IMG/VR virus record: IMGVR_UViG_3300047276_000213
Location: 1 to 42,227 of that record
Direction: 5' to 3' (one strand)
Length of the DNA stretch: 42,227 bases
From: a virus
Below are positions 3,655 through 23,547 of the stretch, piece by piece; within the stretch, counting starts at the first letter, position 1, and each line of letters starts with the position of its first letter. The position numbers were made by a program, and so were the translations under genes. The notes under the pieces were generated by a model that was not told the origin of the DNA, ran no database searches, and was given only the letters and a program-made list of their open reading frames with translations.

Positions 3655-4368
3655 ATGACTAAACCCAAAGGCTTCATCATCGACCGTGGTCTATCACCTA
3701 TCGACGGTCAACCTTACGTTGCTATTCTCACCCTTGAAAGCAACAATAGAAAGACTGGTAACATGGCACAAGTTTGGATCTTGTGTGAAGATATTAACCC
3801 TGTGGAAGCTGTCAAGACTGGCAAGGATGTCACGATCTGCGGCAATTGTCCACACCGTAAGCAGCAAGATGGCAGCCGCTCTTGTTATGTGAACGTAGGC
3901 CAGGGACCGAATAGTATTTGGAAGGCATACAAACGTGGATCTTATATTGACGCTACATCATGGGATCTCAAACAGTATGCACGCATTGTTGGCAACAAAC
4001 GAATTCGCTGGGGTGCCTATGGTGACCCGAGTGTGATTAAACCTGGCATTGTGAATGCTTTGTCTGCCTATTGTCAGGGACACACCGGCTACACTCACCA
4101 ATGGCGCAGTGAGTTTGCACAAGTATTTAAGGGTATCTTTCAAGCCTCATGCGATGGCTTCCAAGACTACCTAGACGCTACTGCTCACGGCTGGAAAACA
4201 TTCACTGTTGTCCACAAGAACGCAACACCAAACTATGCAAAACAATGCCCCGCAACTGTTGAGAATAGTGCTGCCCAGTGTGCAACTTGCAAGTTGTGCG
4301 ATGGTGCTCGGGTTGATGTGTTTGTCCACGCTCATGGTACTGGTGCCAAGTATGTAACTGTTGCTTAA
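3655..4368 (+). CDS. Cysteine-rich conserved phage protein, unknown function
   Basis: The 237-residue product starts at ATG 3655, which has AAGGAG upstream. Ten cysteines are present, six of them in two clusters: ICGNCPHR (C62, C65) with C77 shortly after, and C198 followed by C209-x2-C212-x2-C215. That arrangement suggests a zinc site or iron-sulfur cluster. Between them are SCYVNVGQGP (76-85) and KRIRWGAYGDP (115-125), which I recall as conserved in a phage family annotated only as a domain of unknown function. It is the largest early gene and ends just before a terminator. No enzymatic role can be assigned from sequence alone. Confidence 0.75.
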   Translation: MTKPKGFIIDRGLSPIDGQPYVAILTLESNNRKTGNMAQVWILCEDINPVEAVKTGKDVTICGNCPHRKQQDGSRSCYVNVGQGPNSIWKAYKRGSYIDATSWDLKQYARIVGNKRIRWGAYGDPSVIKPGIVNALSAYCQGHTGYTHQWRSEFAQVFKGIFQASCDGFQDYLDATAHGWKTFTVVHKNATPNYAKQCPATVENSAAQCATCKLCDGARVDVFVHAHGTGAKYVTVA

Positions 4369-6379: not shown

Positions 6380-6748
6380 ATGGCCGAAACATCGACTCCA
6401 CTTGTCAAACCATTGACAGACGAGGTGATGTGGAAAATCTGCCGCATTCACGAGTTGTTTCGCACCAAGGACGTTGAAGTACCGGGTCAATTGGTGTCTG
6501 TCTTCTGCTACATCGCCTCTCACAATCCCTGCAATCTGCAATCCATAGAAGCTGAGTTGGGAATGAGTCCGAATAGCACAAGTCGCAACACTGATTGGCT
6601 GAGTTCTCACCACCGTCTCGGTAAACCTGGCATGGGTCTGATCACCAAAAAGCGCGACCCTCTTAATGGTCGTCGCCGCATTGTGGAGCTGACTGATAAA
6701 GGGTACGAGATGATTGATCAAATCAAGGAGATCCTCGATGGTCACTGA
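6380..6748 (+). CDS. MarR-like winged-helix regulator
   Basis: The 122-residue protein has a winged-helix layout: helices around GQLVSVFCYIASHN, a helix-turn-helix reading CNLQSIEAELGMSPNSTSRN, then a wing in which GLITKKRDPLNGRRRIVEL matches the MarR-type basic wing, and a C-terminal helix KGYEMIDQIKEILDGH. Such proteins bind DNA as dimers. It directly precedes and overlaps the integrase by eleven bases, so it may control integrase expression. Starts at ATG 6380 or ATG 6428 are both possible; the latter follows a GAGGTG and a copy of the recurrent CCACTNGTCA element, which otherwise would lie inside the gene, and would give 106 residues. Confidence 0.75.
   Translation: MAETSTPLVKPLTDEVMWKICRIHELFRTKDVEVPGQLVSVFCYIASHNPCNLQSIEAELGMSPNSTSRNTDWLSSHHRLGKPGMGLITKKRDPLNGRRRIVELTDKGYEMIDQIKEILDGH
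6396..6408 (+). promoter_or_regulatory. Early leader element, copy 4
   Basis: CTCCACTTGTCAA matches the element found upstream of other early genes. It lies inside the MarR-like frame if ATG 6380 is used, but 19 bases before the alternative start at 6428. Confidence 0.4.
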
Positions 6749-7616
6749 CTCTGTTAAGACGTGGGGTCAAGCAGTTGACTTCACCTTTAAAACCAGAGAC
6801 GCATGGAGACACGGGTCGTCTAAGCCCACCAACACCTACAACTGCCAGCATTTCACCAATGCTGTTGGCAATTCCTTTCCATTGCTCAAAATCACGCCGC
6901 TCCTGATGAATCAGGTGTGCATCGATTTGGAAGATGAGCGTGGCCTCTCCGGTTCCACTATCAACCGTGTGATTAGTGCTGTCTCCACAGTGCTCAATCA
7001 CTGCAGTGCGATGGGTGTGATTGATTTCACCCCACCAAAGTTCCAGCGCCGCAAGGAGGGGGAGCACAGGCTGACCTGGTTTACCAAAGAAGAGATCGAG
7101 ACCATGCACCAGGCCGCCTTGGATCCGTTTGCACGGGATGACATTGCCTCGATCATTGTGGTCGCCGCCTACACCGGCATGCGACAAGGTGAGCTGCTCA
7201 AGCTGCGTGTCAAGGATGTCGATCTGGGCACCAACCAGATCTATATCGGTGGTCGCGATGGCTTTGAGACCAAAGGTAAGAACTTCAGGGCTGTGCCCAT
7301 CCATGGACGCATCCAAGAGTTAATGCATAACCGCTGCGAATACGGTCGTAGGGACACCCTCATCTTTGGTGATGATTGGCCGTGTGGAAAGGATCAACTG
7401 ATCCGTGCTTTCAAAAAAGTAAGGAATTACGCCGTTAAGAAAGATGACAAGTGGACTTTCCACTCCCTGCGCCACACGTTCGCCACTTGGTGCGCCGAAT
7501 CCGGTGTGCCGATACGCACCCTCATGGGCCTGATGGGGCACGCCAATGTCGAGACAACATTACGTTATGCAAAAGTTACGGACCAAGCCCGTTACGACGC
7601 AATCAACTCGATATGA
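6738..7616 (+). CDS. int: Tyrosine-family site-specific integrase
   Basis: From ATG 6738, preceded by AAGGAG, the protein is 292 residues. The N-terminal half is a SAM-like core-binding domain. The catalytic domain shows the tyrosine recombinase residues in order: Arg in TGMRQGELL, HSLRHTFAT supplying H-x-x-R, MGHANVETT supplying the GH motif, and the nucleophile Tyr in TLRYAKV. All are intact, so the enzyme is probably active. It catalyses strand exchange between attP and a bacterial attB. A half tRNA-Leu about 100 bases downstream is the likely attP. Similar integrase/attP pairs are known in marine T7-like cyanophages such as P-SSP7, although stable lysogeny is rarely seen. A TTG start at 6714 is less likely. 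Confidence 0.93.
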   Translation: MVTDSVKTWGQAVDFTFKTRDAWRHGSSKPTNTYNCQHFTNAVGNSFPLLKITPLLMNQVCIDLEDERGLSGSTINRVISAVSTVLNHCSAMGVIDFTPPKFQRRKEGEHRLTWFTKEEIETMHQAALDPFARDDIASIIVVAAYTGMRQGELLKLRVKDVDLGTNQIYIGGRDGFETKGKNFRAVPIHGRIQELMHNRCEYGRRDTLIFGDDWPCGKDQLIRAFKKVRNYAVKKDDKWTFHSLRHTFATWCAESGVPIRTLMGLMGHANVETTLRYAKVTDQARYDAINSI

Positions 7617-7721
7617 CTCCGTTTAAGCGCCGACTAGGCGTGTCTAGCAACCCCCTCTGCTACGCTCTTTGAGCACCCAGCGGACAGGTTTCTCACCTGG
7701 ACTCATCGCTGGAATCCCCAC

Positions 7722-7760
7722 GCGGATGTGGCGGAATTGGTAGACGCGCTAGTTTCAGGT
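7722..7760 (+). other. Putative attP core: 5' half of a tRNA-Leu gene
   Basis: The sequence reads as the 5' half of a cyanobacterial tRNA-Leu: acceptor strand GCGGATG, TG, D-arm GCGGAATTGGTAGACGC, a junction base, then anticodon stem CTAGT and loop TTCAGGT with anticodon CAG at 7756-7758. The following bases do not complete the stem, so no functional tRNA is encoded. Placed about 100 bases after the integrase stop, this matches the known pattern in which a cyanophage attP copies part of a host tRNA gene so that integration restores it. Confidence 0.82.
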
Positions 7761-7792
7761 TCGCTTCAGGACTGATCACGCGAGTGGACAGG

Positions 7793-7818
7793 AGCCGGGT
7801 CAACGCCCGGCTTTGCTT
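7793..7818 (+). terminator. Rho-independent terminator after attP
   Basis: AGCCGGG (7793-7799) pairs with CCCGGCT (7806-7812) around a six-base loop, followed by TTGCTTT. The seven-pair GC-rich stem would stop transcription from the integrase region before the RNA polymerase gene. Confidence 0.75.
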
Positions 7819-7830
7819 TAGGAGACAAGG

Positions 7831-7843
7831 TTCCACTCGTCAA
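7831..7843 (+). promoter_or_regulatory. Early leader element, copy 5
   Basis: TTCCACTCGTCAA lies just after the terminator and 46 bases before the RNA polymerase ATG. It links control of the polymerase gene with that of the small early genes. Confidence 0.45.
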
Positions 7844-7889
7844 AGGATCTATATCGGGATCTAGCGACAACCATTCCATTTGAGACAAC

Positions 7890-10229
7890 ATGGTTTCACC
7901 TGCTCTCACCGAGCAACAGATCGAACTGGAGAAGCGTGCCATTGCCTACGGGCGGGAGCGGCTTCTCGATCAAACACGCAAGCTGGAAGAGCGCTCCTAC
8001 GGGTCGGCAACGGTCTATGGGTCCGCCAGCATCCAGGCGGCCCTGGGAGCGGCCTCACGGGTCATCGAGGACACGCTGAACCGCATCCACGAAGGTAAGA
8101 ACGGGGTGGAGTTCGCCACCATCCACCAGTACCTCGCCGAGATCGAACCAGAGGCAGCAGCAGCCATTGCGTTGAAGCTGACCTTCGACAAGGTGTTCAG
8201 CCCAAAGGACAAAGCCAATGAGATCGCCAATGTGATCACAGCCATTGGCCAGGCTCTGGAGCAGGAGTGTCAGCTCCGCTGGTACGAGTCACAGGATCCT
8301 GAGCTGTATGACCGCATCAAGCGTCAGTACTGGCACAGCGCCTGTGGCACCCAGCAGAAGGCCACGGTGGCTCGCACGATGATGAATCGGCACGAGCATC
8401 ACTGGGACAACTGGCAAACTGCCACAAGGGCGAAATTGGGTGGCTGGCTTCTTGACTGTGTGATGAAAGCCACTGGCTGGTTTGACAAGCACATGGTTGC
8501 TAGAGACAAAAAGCGCCTAACGCTGATCGTTCCAAGCCTTCTCTTTGCAATGCAAAAGGAGGAGCTGATGAAGGATGCGTTGATGTTTGCTCCAATGGCG
8601 TGGCCCATGTTGGTCCCACCACGAGACTGGAGTCCTATCAAGGCTGGTGGGTACTTACTGAACGAGGTCATGCATGGCCATGAGATGGTCCGCAGGGGCG
8701 ATGGCGGATTAGTACAGGGGAACACGCCACTCCTGTTTTTGAACAAGCTCCAGAAGGTTGCCTACACGCTCAACGAGTTCATCGTCGACGTGGCTGAGAC
8801 CTTGATGGAGCATCAGTACAAGGTCGGTAAGTTCTTGCCGATCATTGAGCTGCCCCTCCCCAACAAACCGTTCGACATCGCGGAGAACGACGAGGCTAGG
8901 CACGAGTACAGACGGCAAGCAGCAGAGGTGTTGAACCACAACGCTGCGTCATTCAAACGGTCCTGCCGTACACGAATGACCATGGAGACCGTCAAGATCT
9001 TCAAGGGGAAAGACAAGTTCTATCTCCCGTGGTCCTTTGACTATCGAGGTCGCACGTACCCGATCCCAGCCTTTCTCACCCCACAAGACACTGACTTCGG
9101 TAAGTCTCTACTGAAGTTTGCTGAGCCGTCGTTCATGACGGATGAGGCAGAAGCGTGGCTGGCATTCCAAGTAGCAACTTGCTACGGAAATGGGCTGGAC
9201 AAAGCCACGATGCAAGAGCGTCAGGATTGGGTTCTTCAAAACCAAAGCCTGATTTCTGCTGTTGCAACCAATCCACTTGGCAATTTGTCTCAATGGGAAG
9301 TTGCGGATGAGCCGTGGCAGTTCCTCGCTGCATGTGAGGAGTACAACGCTTGTGTCATTGAATGCACAAGAAGTTGGACAAATCTGCCGGTTGCTATTGA
9401 CGCTACGTGCTCAGGACTGCAAATCCTGGCTGGTATGGCGAGAGATCAATCAACTGCAAAGTTGGTGAATGTCTTTCCGTCAGATACACCGCAGGATGCT
9501 TACAAAGTTGTGGCAGAAACGGCTAAGCCAAAGCTGCCAGATCACCTAGCTGTTCTTCTTGATCGGAAGGTCACAAAGAGAACAGTGATGACCATTCCAT
9601 ACAACGCCACCAAGCATTCCAACAGGGCTTACATCCGTGAAGCTTTGAAAGAAAAGGGTGCTGAGTTCACACCAGATGAACTCACTTTGATTGTTAATGC
9701 AGTCAGAGAAGCGATGTATGAGGTTGTCCCCGGTCCAATGCGTGTCATGGATTGGATCAAACAAGAAGTTGGCGCAGCGTTCAAACGCGGCGTAGATCAC
9801 CTTACTTGGGAGACACCTTCAGGGTTCATCGTCAAACAAAACAGACGTAAACGCAAGGTATCAACGATCAAGTTACAGATCCTTGGTCGTTGTGAAGTGA
9901 ACCTAACTACAGGTCACGAAGGACCAGATGTTGCTGGTCACAAGTCCAGCACAGCTCCCAATCTTATTCACTCATTAGATGCTTCGATCTTGCATCAAGC
10001 ATTCCTGAAGTTCAACGCACCGTTCACGGTGATCCACGATTCAGTGCTTTGTCGGGCTACTGATATGGGCACATTGAATCGCGTAGTCAGGGAAACCTAC
10101 TGCGAAATCTTTTCATCCAGCAATCCTCTTTTGGATTTTGCTGACGCCATCGGCGCAGAGACAGAGCCACCAATCATTGGTGATCTCGATCTTGATTCCG
10201 TCCTTGAATCCACCTATTTCTTTTGTTAA
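7890..10229 (+). CDS. T7-like single-subunit DNA-directed RNA polymerase
   Basis: The 779-residue enzyme transcribes phage middle and late genes from phage promoters. The palm carries the catalytic aspartates D504 (AIDATCSGLQ) and D717 (VIHDSVL), matching T7 D537 and D812. The fingers motif R559-KVT-K563 continues to Y571, matching T7 R627, K631 and Y639; the glycine that follows the tyrosine in T7 is Asn here (PYN). It is about 100 residues shorter than T7 RNAP, mostly in the N-terminal part, as in marine podoviruses. It follows a terminator and has its own leader. The stop overlaps the SSB start (TAATG). Phage promoters could not be defined by eye. Confidence 0.95.
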   Translation: MVSPALTEQQIELEKRAIAYGRERLLDQTRKLEERSYGSATVYGSASIQAALGAASRVIEDTLNRIHEGKNGVEFATIHQYLAEIEPEAAAAIALKLTFDKVFSPKDKANEIANVITAIGQALEQECQLRWYESQDPELYDRIKRQYWHSACGTQQKATVARTMMNRHEHHWDNWQTATRAKLGGWLLDCVMKATGWFDKHMVARDKKRLTLIVPSLLFAMQKEELMKDALMFAPMAWPMLVPPRDWSPIKAGGYLLNEVMHGHEMVRRGDGGLVQGNTPLLFLNKLQKVAYTLNEFIVDVAETLMEHQYKVGKFLPIIELPLPNKPFDIAENDEARHEYRRQAAEVLNHNAASFKRSCRTRMTMETVKIFKGKDKFYLPWSFDYRGRTYPIPAFLTPQDTDFGKSLLKFAEPSFMTDEAEAWLAFQVATCYGNGLDKATMQERQDWVLQNQSLISAVATNPLGNLSQWEVADEPWQFLAACEEYNACVIECTRSWTNLPVAIDATCSGLQILAGMARDQSTAKLVNVFPSDTPQDAYKVVAETAKPKLPDHLAVLLDRKVTKRTVMTIPYNATKHSNRAYIREALKEKGAEFTPDELTLIVNAVREAMYEVVPGPMRVMDWIKQEVGAAFKRGVDHLTWETPSGFIVKQNRRKRKVSTIKLQILGRCEVNLTTGHEGPDVAGHKSSTAPNLIHSLDASILHQAFLKFNAPFTVIHDSVLCRATDMGTLNRVVRETYCEIFSSSNPLLDFADAIGAETEPPIIGDLDLDSVLESTYFFC

Positions 10230-13191: not shown

Positions 13192-13348
13192 CACCATCAT
13201 TGTCTGCACTCCAGATGAAATGATCGCCATGCATGAGCGTGGTGAGATCAGCAGTTCAGGTCAGGTAGTCACGCTACCAATTCTCTTTGAGTTTCTGTGT
13301 GATTACTACGGAGTGGATTCCCACTGGCAACCAAATGATGTCTACTGA
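13184..13348 (+). CDS. Small protein of unknown function (54 aa)
   Basis: The 54-residue protein starts MSDTIIVCTPDEMIAMHERG and continues with a strand/helix pattern VVTLPILFEFLCDYYGVD. It is linked by overlaps to both neighbours; its final base is the first base of the DNA polymerase exonuclease ATG (TGATG). The overlaps and absence of a gap support translation. Function unknown; position between helicase and polymerase suggests a replication-related or host-directed small protein. Confidence 0.55.
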   Translation: MSDTIIVCTPDEMIAMHERGEISSSGQVVTLPILFEFLCDYYGVDSHWQPNDVY

Positions 13349-13863
13349 TGAACCTCCTCTTCGACATCGAGACTGACGGCCTGTACGACAACCTTACCAC
13401 CATCCACTGTGTTGCTATCAAAGACCTTGGTAACAATGAGGTTTATGTCTTTAACGATGAAGGCACTCAAGAACCTATTGCTCGTGCCATCACGATGCTG
13501 GAAGGTGCTGAGACAATCATTGGTCAGAACGTAATCAACTACGACATCCCGGTCATTCAGAAGTTCTACCCATGGTTCACTCCGCCAAGGACCATTGACA
13601 CTCTTATTCTTAGTCGTCTCTATCATCCTGATCTGCTTAAGATTGATAACGCTAGGAACTGGAAACACATGCCACTCCAACTCTACGGACGACATTCCTT
13701 AGAGGCATACGGCTACAGATTAGGTGAATACAAGGGTGGTTTTGCTAAGCAAACTGACTGGAAAAACTGGTCACAAGACATGGAGGACTATTGCGTACAG
13801 GACTTACAAGTCACACACAAACTATGGAAGCACTTCCACAAATACCTGACTGGATCTTACTAG
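13348..13863 (+). CDS. DNA polymerase, 3'-5' exonuclease subunit (split gene)
   Basis: This 171-residue protein is the proofreading domain of a T7-like family A DNA polymerase. ExoI is LLFDIETDG (D6, E8), ExoII is IIGQNVINYDIPVI, and ExoIII is YCVQDLQVT. It ends with its own stop at 13861-13863, just where T7 gp5 would continue into the polymerase domain, and the polymerase is encoded by the next, overlapping frame. The two products presumably associate. Split polymerases are known in some freshwater podoviruses of cyanobacteria (Pf-WMP3/4). A sequencing frameshift is the alternative. Confidence 0.9.
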   Translation: MNLLFDIETDGLYDNLTTIHCVAIKDLGNNEVYVFNDEGTQEPIARAITMLEGAETIIGQNVINYDIPVIQKFYPWFTPPRTIDTLILSRLYHPDLLKIDNARNWKHMPLQLYGRHSLEAYGYRLGEYKGGFAKQTDWKNWSQDMEDYCVQDLQVTHKLWKHFHKYLTGSY

Positions 13864-15095
13864 AACATCAGGTAGCAGAAATTCTCACCAGACAACAGTT
13901 GCATGGATGGTACTTCGACGAACGATCCGCTCATGAGTTGGAATGCGAACTACGATCTGCATTTGACTCGCTGCAAAGATCTTTACGACAGCGGCATCCT
14001 TACGTTGCGGGAGGCGAGTTTTCTCCTCGCAGGTCTAACAAGACCAAAGGATACTTACCTGGTTGTCCTTTTACGCGCCTCAAGGATCTTAGCCCAACCT
14101 CGCGAGATCACATCGCGTGGATCATGCAGGAGTTCTATGGATGGGAACCAACCCAGTTCACAGAATCTGGAAAAGCGACTATTGACGAAGTAGTTCTAAA
14201 GGACATAGGTACTCCAATTGCACTTGAGTTCTTTCAGTGTTTGGAACTGACTAAGCAACTTGGCATGTTGTCAGACGGCAACAACGCTTGGCTAAAGCTT
14301 GTCAGAAAGGGCCGAATCCACCACAACTGTTCCGTCTCAACTAACACTCACCGATGTGCCCATAGGAACCCAAATCTGGCCCAAGTCCCATCTGATGAAC
14401 GATTCAGACGACTATTCACTGCAACTCCAGGACTATGCATGGTTGGGGCCGATCTTAGCGGCATCGAGTTGCGGATGTTCGCGCATTACCTTAGTAGGTA
14501 TGACGGTGGCCGCTATGGTGAGATCTTGCTTAATGGCGACATCCACCAAGTTAATGCCGACAAGATTGGCATTAGTCGTAAGCTCGTCAAGACCGTTACC
14601 TATGCTTTTCTTTACGGGGCTGGGAACGAGAAGATTGGACTTTCATACGACCCTCAGCTTCCAGCCGATAAGGCAAAGAAGAAGGGAGCAGAGATACGGC
14701 AAGCGTATCTTGATGCAATTGAAGGTCTTAGCGATCTTGTTGAGGCCGTCAAGAAAAAGGTTCAATCAGTTGGCTACGTCAATTCAATTGATGGACGGCG
14801 TATCACTGTTGATGGACCCCATAAAGCTTTGAACTATCTCCTGCAATCAGGAGCTGGTGTCATTGCAAAGCGATGGATGGTCATCGCTAACGACCAAATT
14901 AAACAACTAAATATTGAAGCTAATCAACTGGCATTTGTTCATGATGAGCTTCAGTTTGAATGTAACCCCGCTCATGCGGACACGTTAATGTTTAATCTTG
15001 AATTGTCAGCAGCTCTCGCTGGCGAATATTACAGGCTGCGAATCCCTATTGCAGCCGAAGCTGGAAGAGGCAATTCATGGGCAGACACTCACTAA
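13824..15095 (+). CDS. DNA polymerase, polymerase subunit (split gene)
   Basis: From ATG 13824 the 423-residue protein holds the family A polymerase domain. Motif A is GADLSGIELR (D210), motif B is RKLVKTVTYAFLYGAG (K256, Y260), and motif C is FVHDELQFEC (D374, E375). It begins at the residue corresponding to the end of the T7 exonuclease domain (LLEHQVAEIL matches T7's IEHRAAWLL region). Between LQRSLRQRH and SPTSRDHI about 40 residues replace some 80 in T7, where the thioredoxin-binding loops lie, so those loops appear largely absent. The overlap with the exonuclease gene is 40 bases in a different frame, without an evident slippery heptamer. Confidence 0.92.
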   Translation: MEALPQIPDWILLEHQVAEILTRQQLHGWYFDERSAHELECELRSAFDSLQRSLRQRHPYVAGGEFSPRRSNKTKGYLPGCPFTRLKDLSPTSRDHIAWIMQEFYGWEPTQFTESGKATIDEVVLKDIGTPIALEFFQCLELTKQLGMLSDGNNAWLKLVRKGRIHHNCSVSTNTHRCAHRNPNLAQVPSDERFRRLFTATPGLCMVGADLSGIELRMFAHYLSRYDGGRYGEILLNGDIHQVNADKIGISRKLVKTVTYAFLYGAGNEKIGLSYDPQLPADKAKKKGAEIRQAYLDAIEGLSDLVEAVKKKVQSVGYVNSIDGRRITVDGPHKALNYLLQSGAGVIAKRWMVIANDQIKQLNIEANQLAFVHDELQFECNPAHADTLMFNLELSAALAGEYYRLRIPIAAEAGRGNSWADTH

Positions 15096-23476: not shown

Positions 23477-23547
23477 TCTTCCATAGTCCAGTGGTCAGGA
23501 CATAGGCGACATGCCGAAGAGTTCGGGTTCGATTCCCGATGGAAGAA
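23477..23547 (+). tRNA. tRNA-like element with shortened anticodon loop
   Basis: Most of a tRNA cloverleaf is present. Acceptor arms TCTTCCA and TGGAAGA pair over seven bases; D-stem GTCC/GGAC encloses AGTGGTCA with A14, G18-G19 and A21; T-arm TCGGG-TTCGATT-CCCGA is perfect; the variable loop is AGAGT. The anticodon arm is odd: TAGGC and GCCGA pair at four of five positions around only five bases, GACAT, instead of seven, and lack the usual U33. No CCA is encoded. It may be a degenerate tRNA, or a tRNA-shaped RNA signal for processing between the small head genes and the capsid message. Confidence 0.65.

Follow-up and report, generated by a model that had tools for sequence, protein, structure and literature searches.

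A half tRNA-Leu(CAG) behind the integrase gene of a T7-like cyanophage, and relatives found integrated at host tRNA-Leu genes

The IMG/VR virus record IMGVR_UViG_3300047276_000213, termed here the window at its full length of 42,227 bases, comes from a T7-like cyanophage and carries the 5′ half of a tRNA-Leu gene with anticodon CAG at 7722-7760 (plus strand). The half reads GCGGATG TG GCG GAATTGGTAGA CGC G CTAGT TTCAGGT, and its 39 bases, which begin with the 5′ strand of the acceptor stem and run through the whole anticodon loop, are identical to the first 39 nucleotides of cyanobacterial tRNA-Leu(CAG). Directly after the core most host genes continue with ACTAG and the window with TCGCT, so the match ends at the anticodon loop, just as the original prediction had proposed. 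A tyrosine integrase gene precedes it at 6741-7616 (plus strand; start 6714 or 6741; PF00589, E=7.4e-29; PHROG_1 integrase), its stop codon ending 105 bp 5′ of the core, and an intrinsic terminator in the form of a T-tailed hairpin lies 32 bp 3′ of the core at 7793-7819 (plus strand; stem 7793-7812); a complete integrase about 100 bases upstream and a terminator just downstream had both been foreseen. In our alignment A1 the R, K, HxxR, H and Y positions, which we take to be the catalytic ones, are all present, and judged by these residues the enzyme is catalytically complete. That 39 bases immediately behind an integrase gene should agree without exception with a host tRNA is far beyond chance, and we regard 7722-7760 as near certainly the phage attachment site (attP).

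As PMC8776855 recounts, published sites of this type go back to P-SSP7. Shitrit et al. (PMC8776855) report a half tRNA-Leu attP for 11 of 13 integrase-bearing genomes, P-SSP7 and S-TIP37 among them, and define the module by a 39-bp perfect match to the first half of tRNA-Leu; the window has such a match to the cyanobacterial gene directly after its integrase gene (int). According to the same paper, integration of S-TIP37 requires both int and attP, P-SSP7 also integrates, the laboratory phages of the group behave as lytic, and intact prophages are stated to be absent. Window positions 7706-7763 are identical over 58 bp to the attP-holding region of S-TIP37, positions 7705-7762 are identical in S-CBP1, and S-CBP2 matches the stretch at 78% over 115 bp. 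The RNA polymerase (RNAP) gene follows int and attP in S-TIP37 as in the window, and the half tRNA likewise lies between int and RNAP in S-CBP1 and S-SRP01, whereas the flanks of S-CBP1, S-SRP01 and S-CBP2 differ from those of the window, the leader of S-SRP01 being of another type. The window integrase is 39.5% identical to that of S-TIP37, 47% to that of S-SRP01 and 52% to that of S-CBP1, so the site has been kept while the enzyme diverges. The window site is an attP of a known T7-like cyanophage type and is not new in itself; its novelty is low, and the interest lies in the integrated relatives described below.

The exact 39-mer was scanned in two collections, giving at least 120 genome-contig and at least 120 viral stretches that were listed, i.e., samples, and the following counts hold among the matches listed. 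The whole tRNA is found in 118 of 120 genome contigs, the other two being one that ends too early to tell (L031) and a host-phage junction (L064), and in 0 of 120 viral contigs, all 120 of which hold the half only. Exact cyanobacterial tRNA matches of this length, on which the original prediction had staked its case, are thus present. The further idea that the site would name the host did not hold up, since titles read by eye place 113 of the 120 genome contigs in cyanobacteria and the 39-mer also occurs in Alkanindiges/Moraxellaceae. With at least 113 records titled cyanobacteria carrying it, host naming from the 39-mer was rejected; it is too widespread to indicate more than picocyanobacteria at best, and no single host. 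A better hint comes from the isolates nearest by DNA, S-CBP3 and above all S-SRP01, the closest relative at whole-genome level with 81.6% over 68% of the first 25 kb, and the virus hosts are ocean and lake cyanobacteria. Among 121 sites (the 120 viral ones and the window), 102 have an integrase-like open reading frame (ORF) 5′ of the core and most of the remaining 19 lie close to a contig end; at L132, L154, L156 and L185 an upstream ORF is present that fails the integrase motif filter. One listed viral record (L211, IMGVR_UViG_3300033058_000047) starts with 15 nt of a host-type leader as in L010 and L094, after which come the half tRNA and then phage DNA resembling L193; this metagenome contig possibly holds a left prophage junction (attL), but is too short for certainty.

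The core is framed by further elements. An extended -10 promoter-like element, TGCTACGCT, lies at 7658-7666 (plus strand) and shows the pattern TGnTAnnnT common to phage sites, which is found at -85 to -20 in 76 of 102 distinct phage sites (shuffle mean 3.07, maximum 9). A leader hairpin follows at 7677-7712 (plus strand), between promoter and half tRNA, the window leader folding at -15.1 kcal/mol; leaders of 45 nt are more stable than their shuffles, with a mean z of -1.93 for 96 phage versus -0.94 for 114 host leaders, and z falls below -1.5 in 66 of the 96 distinct phage leaders versus 30 of the 114 host ones. A T-tailed hairpin within 110 nt 3′ of the core is found at 79 of 101 phage sites (shuffle mean 1, maximum 4), and the controls gave 1 upstream of the core and 6 on the opposite strand. 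These site counts (102, 101, 99 and 96) derive from the listed viral sample plus the window, as distinct sites with enough flank, and as phage sites are related by ancestry they do not count independent events. Farther out, the motif TCTA[AG]{1,2}CG occurs upstream at 52 of 99 phage sites (shuffle mean 3.1), downstream at 58 of 99 (2.9) and on both sides at 33, a distribution that fits integrase arm sites. The window has the candidate arm site TCTAGCG 3′ of the core at 7860-7866 (plus strand) and another candidate, CTAGGCGTGTCTA, 5′ of it at 7634-7646 (plus strand); the latter is the sole exact copy in the window and begins with ACTA, placing it outside the expression for the related motif. 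As a promoter for the phage RNAP, CTAGGCGTGTCTA is unsupported, having a single exact copy within the window. By eye, a TATAAT-like element lies between terminator and RNAP gene at several phage sites (window 7820-7890 and relatives), which suggests that RNAP has its own host-type promoter. Integrase, tRNA core and candidate arm sites on both sides are alike in the window and in classical temperate phages. In classical phages of the lambda integrase type a tRNA attP usually carries the 3′ half, whereas the window carries the 5′ half and no known repressor.

Relatives of the window phage were found integrated in two genomes. The single-cell genome Synechococcus AG-670-B23 (G001) holds a T7-like prophage in tRNA-Leu(CAG) on contig QCSL01000012.1 (52,265 bp; coordinates are those of its reverse complement). 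On the left side, host genes for EPSP synthase, an aminotransferase and a Mur-ligase-like protein lead to a half tRNA-Leu(CAG) at 4142-4180 and a terminator; on the right side the prophage integrase (48516-49559) adjoins the right junction (attR), where a TGCTATATT element is followed by a whole tRNA-Leu(CAG) at 49656-49740 and host DNA with a fasciclin gene. Between attL and attR, 45.5 kb apart, lie relatives of the window genes for single-strand-binding protein, primase/helicase, polymerase, ribonucleotide reductase, portal, tail, terminase, ThyX, RNAP and integrase, several of which owe their names to resemblance to genes of the window and of annotated relatives; the portal is nearest to those of S-TIP28 (66%) and Syn5 (64%). 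The two repeats differ by one inserted base that is present only in attR, so the crossover took place 3′ of this base, towards the anticodon arm. No second tRNA-Leu(CAG) was found elsewhere in the assembly, and an empty site recognised by both flanks was found in 0 of the 120 listed genome loci, the left flank alone reaching 88% to MU1642 (L089). The prophage also carries a ribbon-helix-helix gene (L247:8159-8491, minus strand) that had no relative in 50,697 phage records and remains a repressor candidate; its protein is 51% similar over 75 aa to one near an element in G037 described below.

The second case is a 1.2 Mb genome of the same family (G363), Prochlorococcus-like by our inference, with a T7-like prophage in a different target, tRNA-Leu(UAA), its junctions lying on two contigs. 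Contig C8 runs from a dnaA-like gene to pyrC, a half tRNA-Leu(UAA), a terminator and an RNAP 57% identical to that of the window, and on through tail genes; contig C25 holds tail, terminase, transaldolase-like and winged-helix genes, an integrase, the whole tRNA-Leu(UAA), an ndhL-like gene and trpA (several names come from reading the sequence). The architecture is the same as in the window. The order pyrC-tRNA-ndhL-like, a pattern present in 31 of 41 genomes from which 12 loci were taken, is uninterrupted in all 12 of these relatives; trpA comes next in 11, and L283 ends before that point. We found no published report of these T7-like prophages in the open-licence literature.

A third locus, in a metagenome-assembled genome (G002; contig CANCJV010000068.1, about 7700-8100, L092/L250), holds a whole tRNA-Leu(CAG) with a phage-type leader, which scores 76 against the leader of phage L168, as compared with 34 for the best host leader and 42 for the best shuffled one. 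Upstream of the tRNA lies a 29-aa remnant of an integrase C-terminus (52%, at a weak E=4e-4), beyond which neither an intact int nor window-like phage ORFs were found on the contig, and only one copy of tRNA-Leu(CAG) was found in the assembly. With one assembled genome and a remnant of weak E-value, the locus is probably a decayed prophage that has left its promoter behind.

To see these cases in proportion, 400 genomes from the family of AG-670-B23 were searched (alignment at E<=1e-20 for the integrase and E<=1e-15 for the portal), giving 9 genomes with integrase and 8 with portal matches. Four portals are close (47-73%): those of AG-670-B23 and G363 are integrated, and those of G028 and G069, where no integrase match was found, lie on contigs with only phage genes recognised. 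The distant portal matches are in G050, G224, G345 and G355, the first three of which also have an integrase-like gene. Seven of the nine integrase-bearing genomes have no tRNA-Leu beside int and were not counted as such prophages. Searches by genus matched 1 of 34 and 2 of 41 genomes, the second of the latter two (G209) showing no T7-like neighbours within the 20 kb read. Elements with an integrase and a diverged T7-like RNAP (25-27% to that of the window) lie at 920106-925913 of contig C1 in G037 (L263), 530337-535204 of C1 in G126 (L266) and 3223-8081 of C48 in AG-670-B23 (L251), without other close T7 genes; G037 and G126 are large single-contig genomes, and the elements are perhaps of the "relic prophage" kind named in the title of Flores-Uribe 2019. 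A 44.8 kb contig of a 3.5 Mb genome (G345:C17, L298-L300), whose integrase, RNAP, portal and terminase have only distant counterparts in the window, may be a divergent prophage.

The core, the integrase, the framing elements and the natural junctions of the relatives can be read off the DNA directly. Taken together, we consider it very probable that the half tRNA is the attP core of the neighbouring integrase, recombining with the host tRNA-Leu(CAG) gene in such a way that the tRNA is rebuilt under a promoter supplied by the phage and the prophage is insulated. Since attP holds the 5′ half, integration would separate the host tRNA gene from its own promoter, and a replacement must come from the phage. 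The integrase would recombine the core with the host gene, the anticodon stem-loop or its vicinity being the likeliest place. The resulting attL would consist of the host promoter, the host 5′ half and the phage terminator, and attR of the phage promoter, the leader hairpin and the phage 5′ half joined to the remaining 3′ half of the host gene, thereby rebuilding the tRNA gene; the terminator would keep transcription from the host tRNA promoter out of the prophage. The reading of promoter, half tRNA and terminator as one cassette is likely, while promoter activity, insulation and integration by this very phage are inferred. Several observations weigh on the other side. The window phage itself was not seen integrated; 26 of 102 phage sites have no exact extended -10 pattern and 22 of 101 no T-tailed terminator by the definition used; a general consensus scan with its own thresholds listed neither the promoter (7658) nor the terminator (7793), unlike the comparative scans, in which both kinds of element are enriched; the S-TIP37 integrase is distant from that of the window, as given above; and in the AG-670-B23 prophage RNAP precedes int and thus falls outside the insulation reading. 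That said, the 58-bp identity to S-TIP37, the requirement for int and attP in that phage and the natural attL and attR of the relatives at tRNA-Leu uphold the attP first proposed from the window alone.

Whether the integrated relatives are lysogens is a separate matter. They may instead be snapshots of rare, transient integration during lytic infection, a serious contender that we rate somewhat under even: integration of S-TIP37 is reported for 0.3-1% of infected laboratory cells, with no stable lysogens obtained (PMC8776855), the single-cell data set, which lists plate AG-670, warns of infected cells or "virocells" (PMC6122165), and no classical repressor was recognised, the sole candidates being a winged-helix gene in the window and G363 and the ribbon-helix-helix gene of AG-670-B23. 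A side reaction at such a frequency, however, predicts that free int-bearing phages far outnumber integrated ones, and two integrated against none free with int is unexpected; among the 400 family genomes the two close T7-like genomes that have int are both in the integrated state and G028 and G069 have no int match, though these are few cases and phage contigs may be lost in binning. The probable decayed scar in G002, in addition, needs heritable integration. It is very unlikely that promoter, half tRNA and terminator are mainly a small RNA gene, expressing a tRNA-half RNA in lytic infection with attP function secondary; the promoter-like element, structured leader, half tRNA and terminator do predict a discrete RNA of about 145 nt, but attP explains both the exact host match, which stops after the anticodon loop, and the position next to int. 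An assembly artefact through the shared tRNA repeat is just as improbable for the prophage junctions. Repeats of 43-49 bp are common to host and phage, yet both ends are consistent in two genomes with the phage order circularly permuted, and the inserted base in the AG-670-B23 attR leaves identical stretches far below the final k-mer of the assembler. SPAdes in single-cell mode ends by default at a k-mer of 55. This mode (--sc) was used for the AG-670-B23 data set (PMC6122165). Least probable of all is that the half tRNA is a neutral relic of a past tRNA capture and no longer a working attP, for which speak the lytic laboratory phages (PMC8776855) and a lysogen of this phage not being known, but against which the framing elements are conserved, relatives are found integrated, and the 39-mer is exact while flanks and integrases diverge, an exactness that is by construction as sites were found by the exact 39-mer.

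Around the attP, a small winged-helix/MarR-like regulator gene at 6380-6748 (plus strand; PHROG 9665 "transcriptional regulator", E=1.5e-34) sits directly 5′ of int and overlaps it. It is 37-41% identical to the gene preceding int in S-TIP37, S-CBP1 and S-SRP01, has by eye the same position in the G363 prophage, and is possibly a regulator or an excision partner. The T7-like RNAP gene adjoining attP occupies 7890-10229 (plus strand; PF00940, 2.7e-67), and with this single-subunit RNAP, a T7 terminase, a Gp10A-like capsid and a portal (by similarity) the window has the gene set of a T7-like genome. Its terminase ORF (12-1313) has 433 aa, whereas that of the AG-670-B23 prophage has 573 aa; the window therefore probably begins partway through this gene and represents an incomplete genome. 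The DNA polymerase is split over two overlapping frames (13348-13863 and 13791-15095); the annotation of the S-TIP37 record notes that its polymerase may be translated in two frames, and the polymerase of the AG-670-B23 prophage is one ORF. ARAGORN placed a tRNA-Cys at 23477-23547, just 5′ of the capsid gene, with the unusual anticodon ACA, which may be spurious.

The observations that bear on a temperate cycle are relatives integrated in two genomes and one probable scar, with none for the window phage. True lysogeny in nature stands at about even. The fuller view, only a shade less probable, is that T7-like cyanophages are truly temperate, that the self-contained cassette keeps the essential tRNA expressed and insulates the prophage, and that lysogens last long enough to end as scars, where the only tRNA-Leu(CAG) gene assembled for the host is under a promoter of phage origin. 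Integrases are found in many of the T7-like cyanophages that infect the most abundant photosynthetic cells, and in the laboratory integration is reported without lysogeny (PMC8776855). The integrated relatives suggest that docking may lead to lasting integration in nature, and the two prophages and one scar in public genomes are addressable cases for lysogeny in the sea. The cassette reading would also explain how the 5′ half of an essential tRNA can be used without shutting off host translation.
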